From positions 1 through 64,000 of the forward strand of contig NZ_AYTW01000012.1 in assembly GCF_002752635.1 (NCBI RefSeq): a stretch of DNA of 64,000 nt, written 5' to 3'. Under the pieces are notes generated by a model. That model searched no databases. It was not told where the DNA came from and worked only from the letters and a program-made list of their open reading frames with translations. Below are positions 2,727 to 60,202 of this stretch, piece by piece (the first letter of the stretch is position 1; each line of letters opens with the position of its first letter). The position numbers and the translations under genes are program-made. The DNA is from Mesotoga sp. Brook.08.105.5.1. Lineage in GTDB: Bacteria; Thermotogota; Thermotogae; Petrotogales; Kosmotogaceae.

Positions 2727-3554
2727 CATCCCCCTTTTTTTGAAGTCAAGAACCTCTCTAAACTTTGAATATCTCTCCTCAAACTTTTTTCCAGAGATCT
2801 TAAGAAACTGAAGATAAAGCATGTCTACAATCATCAGCTGAACGATCCGAGTGACCAATCCGCCTTCTGGAAATACCAGTTTGGAATAGTAGCTTTCCAG
2901 GTTCACTTTGGAGTAACCACTGAGCATGGATCTAGCAGGCGTTATAGTGATCACTGATACACCGGACTTCTGCGAAAATCTCAGCGCATCAATAAGATCT
3001 GCGGAAGTCCCTGCACTCGAAATGGCAACTATTACCGAGTCACTTTCCAGCGTGTACGCAGAAATCATCTGCTCGTAGCCATTCTCAATCAACTTAACTC
3101 TCTTCCCGCTCTGAAGCATCTTGAGATAGAGATCATGACCGGCAAGCGCATCGAAACCAAAGGCGTAAATATCAACTATCTGCGCTTCCGCTAATAGTCG
3201 CGCCGCAGCTTCAACATCGTCCTCGTTCAGGCGCGAATATGCTTCGCGAATCGTCGATGACACGAGTTGATCATATGCCTCAAGATCCTCGATCATTACG
3301 GAGGATTTCTCTCTTTGAACAAGTAAGTTGAGCTCGCTTGCGATCGCCAGTCTCAGTTGCGTATAACCGGAGAATCCGAGCTTCTTCGCCGCCTTGATTA
3401 TCATTGAGGGAGCTACCTCCAGTCTTCTCGCCAGATCTTGAACGGGAAGGTCAAGAGCCTCCTCCGGATGACTTATTACGAAAGAGGCAATCCTCTCTTC
3501 GGTTTCTGTGAGATGATGAAGCGCTTCATTGTATGATTGAAGAAGGCTACTCAT
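2718..3554 (-). CDS. MurR/RpiR family transcriptional regulator
   Basis: A 278-residue regulator with an N-terminal HTH_6 domain (about residues 1-75: LTETEERIASFVISHPEEAL, then DLARRLEVAPSMIIKAAKKLGF) and a C-terminal SIS sugar-phosphate isomerase-like domain (about 120-255, with VIVAISSAGTSADLIDALR). SIS domains in this family sense phosphosugars. The ATG at 3554 overlaps the end of the upstream BMP-protein gene by 8 bases, so the two are translationally coupled. A longer frame reaching 3668 lies wholly inside the BMP gene and adds no homologous sequence. A link between sugar-phosphate sensing and a BMP-type binding protein is inferred from this coupling. Confidence 0.9.
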   Translation of the reverse strand: MSSLLQSYNEALHHLTETEERIASFVISHPEEALDLPVQDLARRLEVAPSMIIKAAKKLGFSGYTQLRLAIASELNLLVQREKSSVMIEDLEAYDQLVSSTIREAYSRLNEDDVEAAARLLAEAQIVDIYAFGFDALAGHDLYLKMLQSGKRVKLIENGYEQMISAYTLESDSVIVAISSAGTSADLIDALRFSQKSGVSVITITPARSMLSGYSKVNLESYYSKLVFPEGGLVTRIVQLMIVDMLYLQFLKISGKKFEERYSKFREVLDFKKRGMKK

Positions 3555-13811: not shown

Positions 13812-16641
13812 GTATATATATGTTAGAGGCGCCAGGGTACACAATCTGAAGAATGTAAACGTAGCTATCCCCAAGAACTCTTTAACAATCATTACGGGGC
13901 TTTCCGGCTCGGGAAAATCCTCGCTGGCTCTTGACACTATCTATGCAGAGGGACAGAGAAGGTATCTTGAATCTCTTTCCACATATGCAAGACAATTTCT
14001 TGGGGAGATGAAGAAGCCGGATGTCGAGAGTATCGAAGGCCTTTCTCCGGCTATCGCTATTGAACAGAAGACCGTCAGTCATAACCCCAGATCTACAGTC
14101 GGAACGGTTACAGAGATACATGATTATCTCAGGGTGCTTTACGCAAGAGTAGGAGTTCCTCACTGCCCATCGTGCGGGCGCGAGGTTCAGAAGCAAAGTC
14201 TCGATGAGATTGTCGAGGGAGTTCTGAAGGATTACGGTGAAGAGGACAGAATAGCCATATATGCTCCCGTAGCAAACGAGAAGAAGGGAGAGTTCAAGAA
14301 GGAGCTCGAAGCTCTCAGAAAGAAAGGGTTCGTCAGGGTGGAGATTGACGGTGAGACATATGATCTTGAGGAAGAGTTGAAACTGGACAAGAATAAGAGG
14401 CACACGATAAACCTCGTCGTTGATAGACTTAGGGTAGACGCGGAAAACGCCTCAAGACTTGCTGACAGTATTGAAATGGCTCTTCATGAGGGCGATGGCT
14501 TTGTGGAAGTAGGCCTGGTTGATTCAGAAGAGAGAAAGGTCTTCAGCGAGAATTTCGCGTGCCCTGACTGCGGTATAAGCTTGCCGGAAATTTCGCCGAA
14601 GATCTTTTCGTTCAATAATCCATTCGGTGCCTGTCCAAAGTGTCACGGTTTGGGCTATACGATGGAGTTCTCGAAAGATCTTGTTGTTGATGAAAACCTC
14701 ACCGTTCTCAAGGGAGCGGTGAAGACGATGTCCAACAACAGGGACAGTTTCAACCTGAAGATGATTGTGAGAGTAATAGAGTCTCTCGGAGACGACCCGG
14801 CAAAACCTTTCAAGGATCTACGAGAGGACATCAAGGAAGCCATCCTTTTCGGAACCAGCAGAGACATCTCCATGAAGTATCATTCCGATCGCCTGACATA
14901 TGAGCTGAAGAGACCGTATGAAGGAGTTATAAACAACCTCAATAGAAGATATCAGGAAACTCAATCTGAAGACATGCGTTACTGGATGGAGAGCAACTTC
15001 ATGGTACAGCAAGGCTGCACTCAATGTAATGGCCAGCGTTTGAGACCCGAGGCTCTCGCCGTAACTCTAGGAAATCTGAACATTGCCAGTCTATCGGAAA
15101 TGACAATCCAGGAGATCTACGACTTCATGAGAGAGATCAGATTGACTGATTATCAGCGCGAGATCGTTGGGGAACTCCTCAGAGAGATAGAGAAGCGGCT
15201 CAAATTCCTTGTTGATGTGGGGCTTGATTACATCACGCTATCTAGATACGCTATGACGCTTTCCGGCGGCGAATCGCAAAGAATCAGACTCGCGACTCAA
15301 ATAGGCTCCGGGCTTACCGGCGTAACCTATGTTCTTGATGAGCCGACAATCGGCTTGCACTCTAGAGACAACGACAGGCTTATAAAGACTCTGAAGAATC
15401 TCAGAGATCTAGGAAACACTGTTATAGTTGTGGAGCACGATGAAGAAGTCATAAGGAGTTCTGACTATATTGTGGACGTAGGGCCTGGAGCGGGCGTTCA
15501 TGGGGGAGAGATAGTCTACCAGGGGACCACCCAGGCGTTGCTCGGCAATCCGCCTGATCGTTCTCTCACCGGCAAGTATCTTAATGGCGAGCTTTCCGTT
15601 CCCAGATTCGAAGTGCCCGTTAACGCAAACGGAAAGCATCTTACCGTCAAACACGCCACAAAAAACAATCTCAAGGGCATCGATGTTTCATTCCCATTAG
15701 GCAAGTTCATAACGGTAACCGGTGTTTCAGGGAGCGGCAAAAGCTCTCTGGTAATGGATACCGTTTATCCATCACTTAAGAGTGTTCTTGGAGGATCGAA
15801 CTCTACCGGTGAGAAGCTAGCGGAACTAGAGGGATGGGAAGAAGTTGACAATGTCATTGTCATAGATCAGAACCCCATCGGAAGAACTCCAAGATCGAAC
15901 CCCGCAACTTATTCCGGGCTTTTCGATCATGTTAGGGATCTCTTTGCAAAGACTCAAGAGTCAAGAGCGAGAGGCTACAGCAAGGGACGTTTTTCCTTCA
16001 ATGTGAAAGGCGGGCGATGCGAAGCCTGTCAGGGCCACGGGTTGTTGAAAATCGAAATGCAATTCCTCCCCGATGTCTATGTCGAGTGCGATGTATGTAA
16101 GGGAAGAAGATACAACAAGGAGACATTGGAGATACGCTACAGAGGGAAGACGATATCTGATGTTCTTAACATGACCGTAGAGGAAGCCTCTGATTTCTTC
16201 GAGCGAATCCCAATGTTGAACAGAATTCTCTCACTTCTGAATGATGTAGGTCTGGGATATGTACGCCTCGGACAACCGGCCACTACCCTTTCCGGAGGAG
16301 AGGCACAGAGGATTAAGCTCGCCTCTGAGTTGAAGAAGAAATCCACCGGCAAGACCTTCTACATCCTTGATGAACCTACTACCGGATTGCACTTCGATGA
16401 CGTTGCCAAGCTTGTTCGAGTACTGAAGCGACTCGTCGAAATGGGCAATACAGTGGTAGTTGTTGAGCACAACATTGACGTGGTGAAGAATGCAGATCAC
16501 ATAATAGATCTCGGACCTGAAGGCGGGGCGCACGGCGGAGAAATAGTGGTTTGCGGGACGCCAGAAGAGGTTGCGGAATATAGACAGAGTCACACCGGTT
16601 ACTATCTCAAGAAGCAGCTCTCGCAGCTTGAAACGTTTTGA
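13801..16641 (+). CDS. uvrA: Excinuclease ABC subunit UvrA
   Basis: A 946-residue damage-recognition ATPase of nucleotide excision repair. It has two ABC ATPase halves, each with Walker A ([10 protein letters not shown] near residue 32 and [10 protein letters not shown] near 640), ABC signatures [12 protein letters not shown] and [12 protein letters not shown], and zinc-binding cysteine pairs (CPSCG, CPDCG...[12 protein letters not shown]...CDVCKG). The ATG at 13801 is preceded by CAGGAG and overlaps the end of glmM, so the two are probably co-transcribed. No defect is visible. Confidence 0.97.
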
Positions 16642-16654
16642 TACTGAGCCGAAG

Positions 16655-17275
16655 AACATCGGTGGACGCAAGGCTGCCTTCGGCAGGAGGCGGGACCGAC
16701 TGCGTCGGGAAGTGAGGCTCGCTGGCGCGAGGAAGTGATGCCCGGAGAAACGTCCGGGGAAGTGATGCCGCTTTCAGCGGGAGGATTCAGAAGCTTCGCG
16801 GGGAAGCTTTTGTTGGGTTCAACGTTGTCTTTACAGCGATCAGCGGGTTCATGTTCTTAAGCGTACAGCGGCTCTTCCAGCGATCAGCGGGTTCTCCGCT
16901 CTTAAGCGCACAGCGGCTCTCTCAAGAGTACAGCGAAAAGCGGCTCTTAGATTCGAGATCCCGTGCAAAGGCATCACGGGATGACAGTCTTGGGTTATTC
17001 GGAATACACCTCATCCCGTCATCTGACATGCTTTTGGTCAGAATCTCGATTCACGCGGAAAAGGGACATAAGGAACCTGTCAGTCTCTACTTTGCTTCTT
17101 GGCTTTTCACAGCGCACAGCGGCTCTTAGCCCGCGAAGCGGAACTGGCCTCACCGAAGGTGACTTGCTTTTCTTTCGTCTTCTCGTGAGCGTAGCAAACG
17201 TCTCGACAATGCTCTTTCTCGATTGATCTTATCAGAGGACGGATCCGTGCTCTTGGACGGTCAACGGAGGCCTGT
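16655..17275. repeat. Hairpin mosaic repeat, copy B
   Basis: This fills the 826-base gap after uvrA and has no credible gene. On the plus strand five stem-loops follow one another (16671-16771): CTGCCTTCGGCAG, CCGACTGCGTCGG, CTCGCTGGCGCGAG, CCGGAGAAACGTCCGG and CCGCTTTCAGCGG. They are joined by the linkers GAGGCGGGA, GAAGTGAGG, GAAGTGATGC and GGAAGTGATG. Then come AAGCTTC-GCGGG-GAAGCTT, a 44-base tandem repeat built on AGCGATCAGCGGGTTC (16835 and 16879), a stem ATCCCGTG...CACGGGAT (16958-16982), and blocks shared with copies A and D. The rest, 17276-17460, shows nothing I recognise. Confidence 0.85.
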
Positions 17276-17467
17276 TCTCATGTGGTACGGGGTTAGTCGT
17301 CGGTGATTATTCCAACTCTTCTGAAAGGAATCGCAGACAATAGACTCCATACAATAAGATAAGGCATAATTGAATAGGGTTAGATGACCAGTCTTGTAGA
17401 CGTGTCGTGGCCCCTGCTGACAATTGATCCTGAACAGTATGGCCAAGCATTGCCTGGAGGTTGAGCG

Positions 17468-26994: not shown

Positions 26995-27800
26995 TGCATG
27001 GCTGGCTTCGCCAGGAAGTGATGCTGCTGCGCAGGAAGTGATGCGCCGTAAGATCGCCGGCGGAAGTGATGCTGCTTCGCAGGAGGCGACAAAATTAGCA
27101 GAAAGAAAATGGGACCTTACTAGCCAGTCACCTTCCGTGGCCAGTCAGGCTTCGCCTGGCCAGTCTTTGCTTCGCAAAGGCCAGTTCCGACTTCGTCGGC
27201 TGAACAAAAAAACGAGAAAGAGCGTTGTCGAGAGGTTCGCTTTGCTCACGAGAGAAGAGAGAGAGCCGGACTCGCCTTTGGCGAGGCCAGTCACTGCAAG
27301 CAGTGGCGAGAAAAACTAGAAGAACATCAAACCGATTTCGTGCGGCCAGTTCCGGCTGCACCGGGCTAAGAACCATCGTTTGTGGTACGGTTGGTCAAGA
27401 ACAAAGAGCTAGAGCCCCCCATAAATCAAAGAGTATCGAAATCCAGTTTGCCCTGAACGGGAGACCCCAAACAGGTGCATATTGGGGCAAGCTTTTCAGG
27501 GCAGGTTCTATGGGATGACATGAGGGGAAAATTTCAGAGCGAAACGAATTTGGTGCTTCCTTTCTTGTATGCTCTTACCAACAACCAACAACGAACAACC
27601 AAGAACCGCTCTTGCTAGGAGCACAACGGGATGATAGCCTTTTCGTGCTTTGGATCATCCTAGCGCGCTTCCGGTAAGGATCTGCATCCTCTCACAATAT
27701 GATCTTGACCAAGAACGAGGAACAGATCCTCGCTCTGGAACGAAGAACAGATTTTTTTCTCTCTTGGACGGTCAACTAAGGACGTCTCTTCAAAGCCTAA
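26995..27800. repeat. Hairpin mosaic repeat, copy C
   Basis: Non-coding. First array (27002-27090): stem-loops TGGCTTCGCCA, TGCTGCGCA, GCCGTAAGATCGCCGGC and TGCTTCGCA, each separated by GGAAGTGATGC. Second array (27121-27200): CACCTTCCGTG, CAGGCTTCGCCTG, CTTTGCTTCGCAAAG and CCGACTTCGTCGG, separated by GCCAGT. Then an inverted copy of the block at 482-517 (27212-27255), CTCGCCTTTGGCGAG and CACTGCAAGCAGTG, and from 27699 a block shared with copy D. A simple AACAACC-type run lies at 27569-27598. I see no gene. Confidence 0.85.
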
Positions 27801-58832: not shown

Positions 58833-60202
58833 CGCAAGTTCCGTACTTGGTAGCGGGCGCGGCCCAGGGCGTCGGAAAGAGCTCTTAAACGTCGTACGAG
58901 TTAGCTGGTGCGGGGTAGGGGTAGATGATGGTGGTTGGCCTGAAGCAAGAGCGAGAGCTAGAACTTGGTCATTCAGAAAACAAATGAAAGTTATGCAATC
59001 AGACGCAACGGACTTTGTCGATGATGCCTTGGCACACCCTGGCAAGAATCCGGCATTTGAAAGTCCATGATAGAGATCATTGGTTCTCGTTTGAGGGATG
59101 AACTCTGGAAACATAGACCGTGATGCTGAAACAATTTCGCATGCGGCAATAGCGGGTATAGGGTATTAGGTCTGGGCGGTTCGGTGAACAGAAGCGGTCA
59201 ACCCCTTGAGCGATTCTTGAGAAACCGCGGTTGGTGGTTGCAGCGGTAGGAAAGAGCAAAGTGAAACAGGCTGACCGTTGAATGGTTCTCCGTTTGCCAA
59301 GAAAAGCATCAGTTGGAAGTTCCAAGTTGCAAGTTGTAAGAAAAAGCAAGAGACCGGGGTTGGGGGTAGGAAAGAACGAGAGAACCTGGTTGACCGTTGA
59401 ACGGTTCTCCGAGGAGAACCCGTTGTTCGTTCCAGAGCGAGTATCTGTTCTTCGTTCTTGGTGAAGATCATAATGCAGGAGCAAGAAGATCATAACCAGG
59501 AACCTCAAGCAGAAGCATTTTGGGGCAGGCTCTGCAGGTTGATTGCTTTTTTGAATCCTTCCCTGTGAAGCATGCATTACGACCTGGCGTGATCTTCGCC
59601 ACCCTTGCGTCCGCCGATGTTCTTTGGCCCATTGCTTCTCGCGATGTTCTTCCCGGAGAACGGCTCTTACAGCGTTAAGCGGTTCTTCCAGCGACCAGCG
59701 GTTTTTTTCTTAAGCGTGCAGCTGCTCTTTCGAAGGACAGGTCCTCGCTCCTGGACGGCGAACGGACAACGTCTCTTTCGCTCTTCTTCTGAACCAAGAA
59801 CAAAGCTCCTAGCTCTGGAACGAAGAACTTGGGCGCAACGCGCCGGAACCGATCTTCCGATACTATCGGAGAACGGCGAACCGCTGACGGTCAACGTGGT
59901 TTTTCATCAGCGCTCAGCGTTCAGCGGTTCTTAGCCCGCGAAGCGGAATTGGCCTTTGCTAAGCAAAGACTGGCCAGGCGGAGCCGGACTGGCCACTGAA
60001 GGTGACTGGCTCTTTCTTTTGCCTCCTGGCGCGGAAGCGCCAGCACCACTTCCCCGGACGTTTCTCCGGGCATCGCTTCCTGCGCAGCAGCATCACTTCT
60101 CGACGAAGTCGGACTCGCCTCCTGCCGAAGGCAGCCTTGCGTCCGCCGATGTTTTCGGCGCATTGCGTACCCGGGGCAGCGCGCAGTAGGCGTCTGCCTC
60201 AC
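58833..60202. repeat. Long non-coding gap; hairpin mosaic repeat, copy D
   Basis: 1,370 bases without a credible gene. 58833-59100 shows nothing I recognise. From about 59100 the mosaic begins: GACCGTTGAACGGTTCTC-type stems (59270-59410), a block inverted relative to copy C (59421-59473), AGCGACCAGCG (59690) like the copy B tandem, and another CCAAGAAC...CTGGAACGAAGAAC block (59793-59828). On the minus strand 60165-60023 gives stem-loops CTGCCTTCGGCAG, CGACTTCGTCG, TGCTGCGCA, CCGGAGAAACGTCCGG and TGGCGCTTCCGCGCCA with GGAAGTGRTGC-type linkers. 60012-59940 has the GCCAGT-linked class. Confidence 0.85.

Follow-up and report, generated by a model that had tools for sequence, protein, structure and literature searches.

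A string of short palindromes directly downstream of a uvrA-like gene in Mesotoga sp. Brook.08.105.5.1 probably (at a probability of about 0.6) belongs to a family of REP-like DNA that is specific to Mesotoga, non-autonomous and mobile or selfish, in which hairpins are strung on 9-nt linkers. This reading is based on the observations that blocks are dispersed, nearly identical across species and strictly oriented, that linkers and loops are conserved while stems are exchangeable, and that CRISPR repeats contain insertions flanked by a direct duplication of 16 nt; any step of the mechanism other than dispersal and insertion is our inference.

Layout of the arrays and their units

The array (copy B) comprises seven hairpins and six joins at positions 16649–16809 on the forward strand of the window, the 64,000-nt stretch of contig NZ_AYTW01000012.1 analyzed here. 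Its first hairpin lies 7 nt past the stop codon (16639–16641) of the 3' part of a co-directional ABC ATPase gene (15502–16641, +; PF00005, E=1.2e-10), for which the name uvrA is taken from sequence motifs, without a family-specific match. In order, the hairpins are CCGA-AGAACA-TCGG (16649–16662, long-loop class with a truncated stem), CTGCC-TTC-GGCAG (16674–16686, TNC triloop class), CCGAC-TGC-GTCGG (16696–16708), CTCGC-TGGC-GCGAG (16718–16731), CCCGGA-GAAACG-TCCGGG (16741–16758, RRANCR hexaloop class), CCGCT-TTC-AGCGG (16768–16780) and, at the array end, the atypical AAGCTTC-GCGGG-GAAGCTT (16791–16809); five of the seven are perfect stems of 5–6 bp. The 9-nt joins are, successively, GACGCAAGG (16665–16673), the variant GAGGCGGGA (16687–16695), GAAGTGAGG (16709–16717), GAAGTGATG (16732–16740), GAAGTGATG again (16759–16767) and GAGGATTCAG. 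The original prediction of six palindromes at 16661–16801 was correct as to their presence but one short in number, and the array begins 12 nt earlier. The linker that it described as nearly constant does recur, as GAAGTGATG twice and GAAGTGAGG once, but the other three joins depart from it, and a search of the window for the linker with two mismatches gave 30 matches vs 18.3 in shuffles, a barely higher count. A protein-coding repeat was ruled out since the unit lengths (20, 22, 23, 27 and 28 nt) break the reading frame. The motif TTTGTGGTACGG, found close to copies B and C, was dismissed as an element end because it does not recur.

Further arrays in the window are copy A (approximately 341–457, −), copy C (27002–27086, +; CTGGC-TTC-GCCAG, CTGC-TGC-GCAG, CGCCG-TAAGATCGC-CGGCG and CTGC-TTC-GCAG) and a fourth copy (60019–60160, −) about 42 nt beyond a co-directional reading frame. 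A sister array with similar hairpins on a GCCAGT linker lies at approximately 27120–27200 (+). At 1–287 (−) lies a group II intron (RF01999) of which only the 5' part is present, the contig start cutting it.

Array statistics were drawn from 444–464 kb of the source genome (G000) and 560–640 kb of its congener G001, picked mostly around copies. The unit is a hairpin with C...G ends and a 4–6 bp stem, followed by a 9-nt linker (GAAGTGATG, GACGCAAGG and relatives), of which GAAGTGATG is the most used; the 11-mer GGAAGTGATGC is the linker plus a flanking G and C, which are terminal stem bases. We parsed 307 linker-bounded inserts, all but seven of them exactly 11, 13, 14, 18 or 19 nt long (300/307). 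Triloops are TNC in 65 of 68 cases, which is GNA on the opposite strand, and GNA triloops form unusually stable DNA mini-hairpins. A second loop class is the 6-nt RRANCA closed by GA...TC, with A3, C5, A6 and the closing GA/TC conserved. Units are arranged head-to-tail, about ten at most being parsed in one string, with 302 adjacent pairs in the same orientation and none in the opposite one. The sister type combines the GCCAGT linker with similar TNC hairpins. Seven open reading frames overlap arrays, all without a Pfam match, and the arrays can therefore be considered extragenic.

Stem pairing and folding as DNA or RNA

Pairing is retained across hairpin types while sequence varies. Among the 74 unique 18-mers, 92.2% of the outer five positions were paired, compared with 63.0% (maximum 69.5%) when the 3' halves were shuffled; the corresponding values were 91.9% vs 65.4% for 19-mers and 90.9% vs 63.7% for 13-mers. 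One stem position can hold CG, GC, TA or AT pairs across units, the first pair being C-G in 69 of the 74 18-mers. The prediction that pairing is kept as sequence changes therefore stands at the level of hairpin types, but the pair originally quoted for it (TGC vs TTC) is a loop change and uninformative on stem covariation; genuine two-sided stem differences were seen only between different hairpins. The further claim of selection on structure fared less well within a single stem type, where one-sided, pair-breaking changes numbered 28 and two-sided changes five, the five including related cases. This excess indicates that individual resident copies decay, and pairing could be needed only while a copy is made or moved. 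The pairing shuffles disregard the relatedness of copies, so the covariation is evidence that paired variants came into being but not of constraint on every single copy.

Passive repeat growth without a transposase would also keep stems paired in the absence of selection, by replication slippage and template switching in quasi-palindromes in which one arm is copied onto the other, with blocks being moved by ordinary recombination between similar modules. Two-sided stem changes that occur even though pairing is loosely kept are in accord with such growth, as is the first-order grammar of the modules, which is expected from duplication and deletion: the linker correlates with the hairpin that follows it, and the series CTCG hairpin-GAAGTGATG-CCCG hairpin occurs 17 times. 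The stem vocabulary, however, is about ten types and does not resemble free drift. Together with the dispersal and insertion data below, this leads us to regard passive growth as a tentative and rather unlikely explanation.

The best folds (MFE) of 25 arrays kept 92–94% of the intended stems with DNA parameters vs 65–73% with RNA parameters, and DNA is accordingly the better-fitting reading. Against shuffles, copy B gave z-scores of −2.1 and −2.9 when folded as DNA, compared with −1.2 and −1.8 for RNA. The arrays thus probably act as DNA hairpins, an RNA role being less likely. Were they transcribed, for example within 3' UTRs or as sRNAs, they could serve as multi-hairpin RNAs in protein sequestration or mRNA stability, for which their GC-rich hairpins and conserved loops would be suited and the positions of copy B and of the 60019–60160 copy, both co-directional and shortly past a stop codon, would be appropriate. 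We consider this quite improbable, because whole-array RNA folds break about one-third of the intended hairpins, copy B as plus-strand RNA (z=−1.2) folds little better than its shuffles, and no Rfam family matched above its gathering score over the array. Moreover, the sense strand of the upstream gene is not favored (20/32 sites in G000 and 11/27 in G001), and by these crude gene calls no clear gene-orientation preference was found in either genome. A CsrA sponge of the known CsrB-like form was ruled out, CsrA being found in none of ten Mesotoga genomes while the control genomes were positive.

Dispersal, insertion and the search for a mobilizing enzyme

The 11-mer GGAAGTGATGC has 116 exact matches in the 2.99-Mb source genome, compared with two for the reversed string. 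The further copies that were predicted in relatives were found in four near-complete Mesotoga congeners (89 in G001, 39 in G002, 44 in G004 and 133 in G009), and the incomplete G005 and G008 hold 12 and 14. Three other members of the genus (G003, G006 and G007) have only 0–2 matches, indicating that arrays are essentially missing there, and counts are at background (0–3) in the other genera searched. Named records with true arrays belong to Mesotoga or Kosmotogaceae, with the addition of two contigs filed elsewhere. One of these, filed as Acidobacteriota, was rejected as a non-Mesotoga carrier as it is 98% identical to G001 and hence Mesotoga DNA; the other, a 4-kb contig filed as Bacteroidales (L140), bears a genuine-looking array. 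Spread into other phyla was rejected, double-linker matches outside Mesotoga being mostly coding or simple repeats, and a viral contig search found no arrays. In a Treponema MAG (L147, ~3000–3100), the pattern search caught a different palindromic string, tandem GAGGAAGTGGCGCTTCCTARCAC repeats.

A four-hairpin block with fixed linkers recurs in almost identical form at numerous unrelated sites with differing flanks in G000, G001 and Mesotoga WOFB36, genomes with a gene identity of only 74–80%. Near-identical blocks in species 20–26% apart in their genes are not readily explained by passive growth. In the G001 chromosome, array positions at ~1.822–1.847 Mb recur at ~1.899–1.923 Mb, each shifted by 76,303 bases, which suggests a large segmental duplication.

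Evidence for insertion comes from the CRISPR loci of G001, in which five repeats (GTTGCGTRAGAACCATAGTGGTATGGAAAC) hold array-bearing inserts of ~271 nt and 128 nearby repeats are intact. Filled repeats have the order GTTGCGTRA - core - insert - core - (insert - core) - GAAAC, in which the 16-nt core GAACCATAGTGGTATG stands on both sides of the insert, as opposed to singly in the intact repeats. The target duplication characteristic of a DNA transposon or insertion element is thus found in these repeats, but site-specific integration at the core would give the same picture. The five filled repeats may represent independent insertions, one insertion spread via recombination, or site-specific integration. 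Passive growth again does not readily account for inserts that enter five repeats at one and the same base and duplicate 16 nt. More filled and empty pairs occur in related intergenic DNA (L108, L122/L126). Only the CRISPR inserts have clear element ends, the flanks elsewhere being mosaics of other repeats. A further partial match to the CRISPR-insert element lies in the window at 59605–59656 (−; 83% over 52 nt). Position 16811–17300 of the window and many intergenic regions are mosaics of other short repeats besides the hairpin arrays, including CAGCGATCAGCGG, GGACGGTCAACGGAGG, GATCCCG...CGGGATGACA and GGTTGGGGGTCGG. Passive growth does gain some support from intergenic regions composed of many unrelated short repeats.

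The site after uvrA carries GCCAGT-type strings in G009 and G001 and the GAAGTGATG type in G000; such different modules between species imply fast turnover. They also speak against arrays being DNA sites used by the host for nucleoid protein or gyrase binding or for chromosome marking, as suggested for BIMEs, as do the patchy distribution in the genus and the copies in CRISPR repeats, which resemble damage more than service. The conserved linkers would suit such a use, as would a strand bias of G001 arrays relative to dnaA at 1.1 kb (26/37 sites, p=0.02), which is weak, and we hold host use to be highly unlikely.

We found genes for Y1_Tnp (PF01797), RAYT-like proteins of about 290 aa, in G000, G004 and G009, but none in the complete, array-rich G001, while array-free G007 has one or more. 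No array lies within 9–11 kb of either of the two intact genes in G000, and only two Y1 loci are near an array, a degenerate copy at C16 and a G009 gene (L088). A RAYT was dismissed as the obvious mobilizer because its presence does not track the arrays; as a past agent it is an unsupported possibility. No transposase linked to arrays was found among the Y1_Tnp loci searched, which counts against the mobile-element reading. Around the Y1_Tnp genes at G000 sites C19 (L080, 3841–5387 and 8550–10351) and C32 (L079, 6970–8512) are two-gene units whose proteins, judged by eye, resemble AbiEi/AbiEii-type pairs. Group II introns were rejected as users of the hairpins; RF01999 introns adjoin several arrays, but with their 5' ends in the AGTTGCAAGTTCCA repeat module and none at a hairpin. 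In G001, which has about 20 reverse-transcriptase matches, related introns begin after a AGTTGCAAGTTCCA-like intergenic repeat and are often one module from a hairpin array.

Relation to known repeats and proposed mechanism

The view that no named repeat family has this layout holds within the literature searched, the published REPs of M. prima being of another kind. These CGTC-tagged REPs (CGTC-3; Di Nocera et al. 2013, PMC3733652) have an unpaired CGTC (TGTC/CCTC) tag at one end, 8–9 bp stems opening with AT pairs, CCA tails and mostly head-head dimers, and are rarely clustered. They resemble the arrays in being short extragenic palindromes of Mesotoga without an associated transposase, and GACGCAANG linkers read on the minus strand put CGTC at the hairpin foot, but the commonest linker, GAAGTGATG, lacks CGTC. 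Array stems of 4–6 bp with C-G ends differ from the 8–9 bp with AT in the first two positions, array loops are mostly 3 nt or 6–7 nt instead of 4–5 nt, and the exclusively head-to-tail order differs from head-head dimers. A separate module of Mesotoga genomes, GTCATCCCGAACTTGTTTCGGGATCTG, resembles the published CGTC-3 REP.

BIMEs and GTAG REPs with RAYTs (for example PMC2817692) are likewise mosaic extragenic palindromic DNA with >100 copies per genome, for which mobilization by a Y1 transposase is suspected. BIME units alternate in orientation (PMC2817692) and share one stem, in contrast to array neighbors (302/302 in the same orientation) with exchangeable stems. Common array linkers also lack GTAG, and instead of a repeat-flanked RAYT gene the arrays have only the degenerate C16 copy and the one G009 gene near them. 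The repetitive hairpin elements of sponge mtDNA and double-hairpin elements of fungal mtDNA (PMC2800124) are tandem short intergenic hairpins seen as selfish mobile DNA, but they are organellar and conserve stems while loops vary, the reverse of the conserved loops and linkers and differing stems of the arrays. Mesotoga prima appears in a palindrome/REP count table in excerpts of the RepRanger paper (PMC12306157), according to which Thermotogota motifs match no other taxon; arrays, linkers and mobility are not described in those excerpts. The arrays are short, intergenic, high-copy palindromes and hence REP-like in the broad sense, a new variant that no narrower family fits.

Integron attC sites are recombination sites recognized by their folded single-strand shape and are variable in sequence. 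They offer a working analogy only; the arrays have no cassette genes between units and no attC boxes were noted. Under the mobile-element reading, the folded DNA of the element would be recognized via its loops and linkers and not its stem sequence, and any paired stem would be tolerated in copying. Recombination or slippage between the recurring linkers and stems may then let arrays grow, shrink and exchange modules, while copies already in place would slowly decay. A more specific version, which we put forward as a speculative and less probable alternative, is a distinct miniature mobile DNA whose enzyme would read the folded-hairpin string by loops and linkers, leaving stems free, and integrate at the 16-nt core that lies in the G001 CRISPR repeats.

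How the common REP-type repeats diversify in sequence yet stay palindromic is an open question in the field. Mesotoga offers many stems with fixed loops and linkers inside one genome, and its filled CRISPR repeats provide natural sites of insertion for which the empty repeats serve as controls. Should an enzyme recognize shape over stem sequence, the arrays would be a simple natural system for studying such recognition; if not, they would be a clear case of palindromes produced by copying errors.
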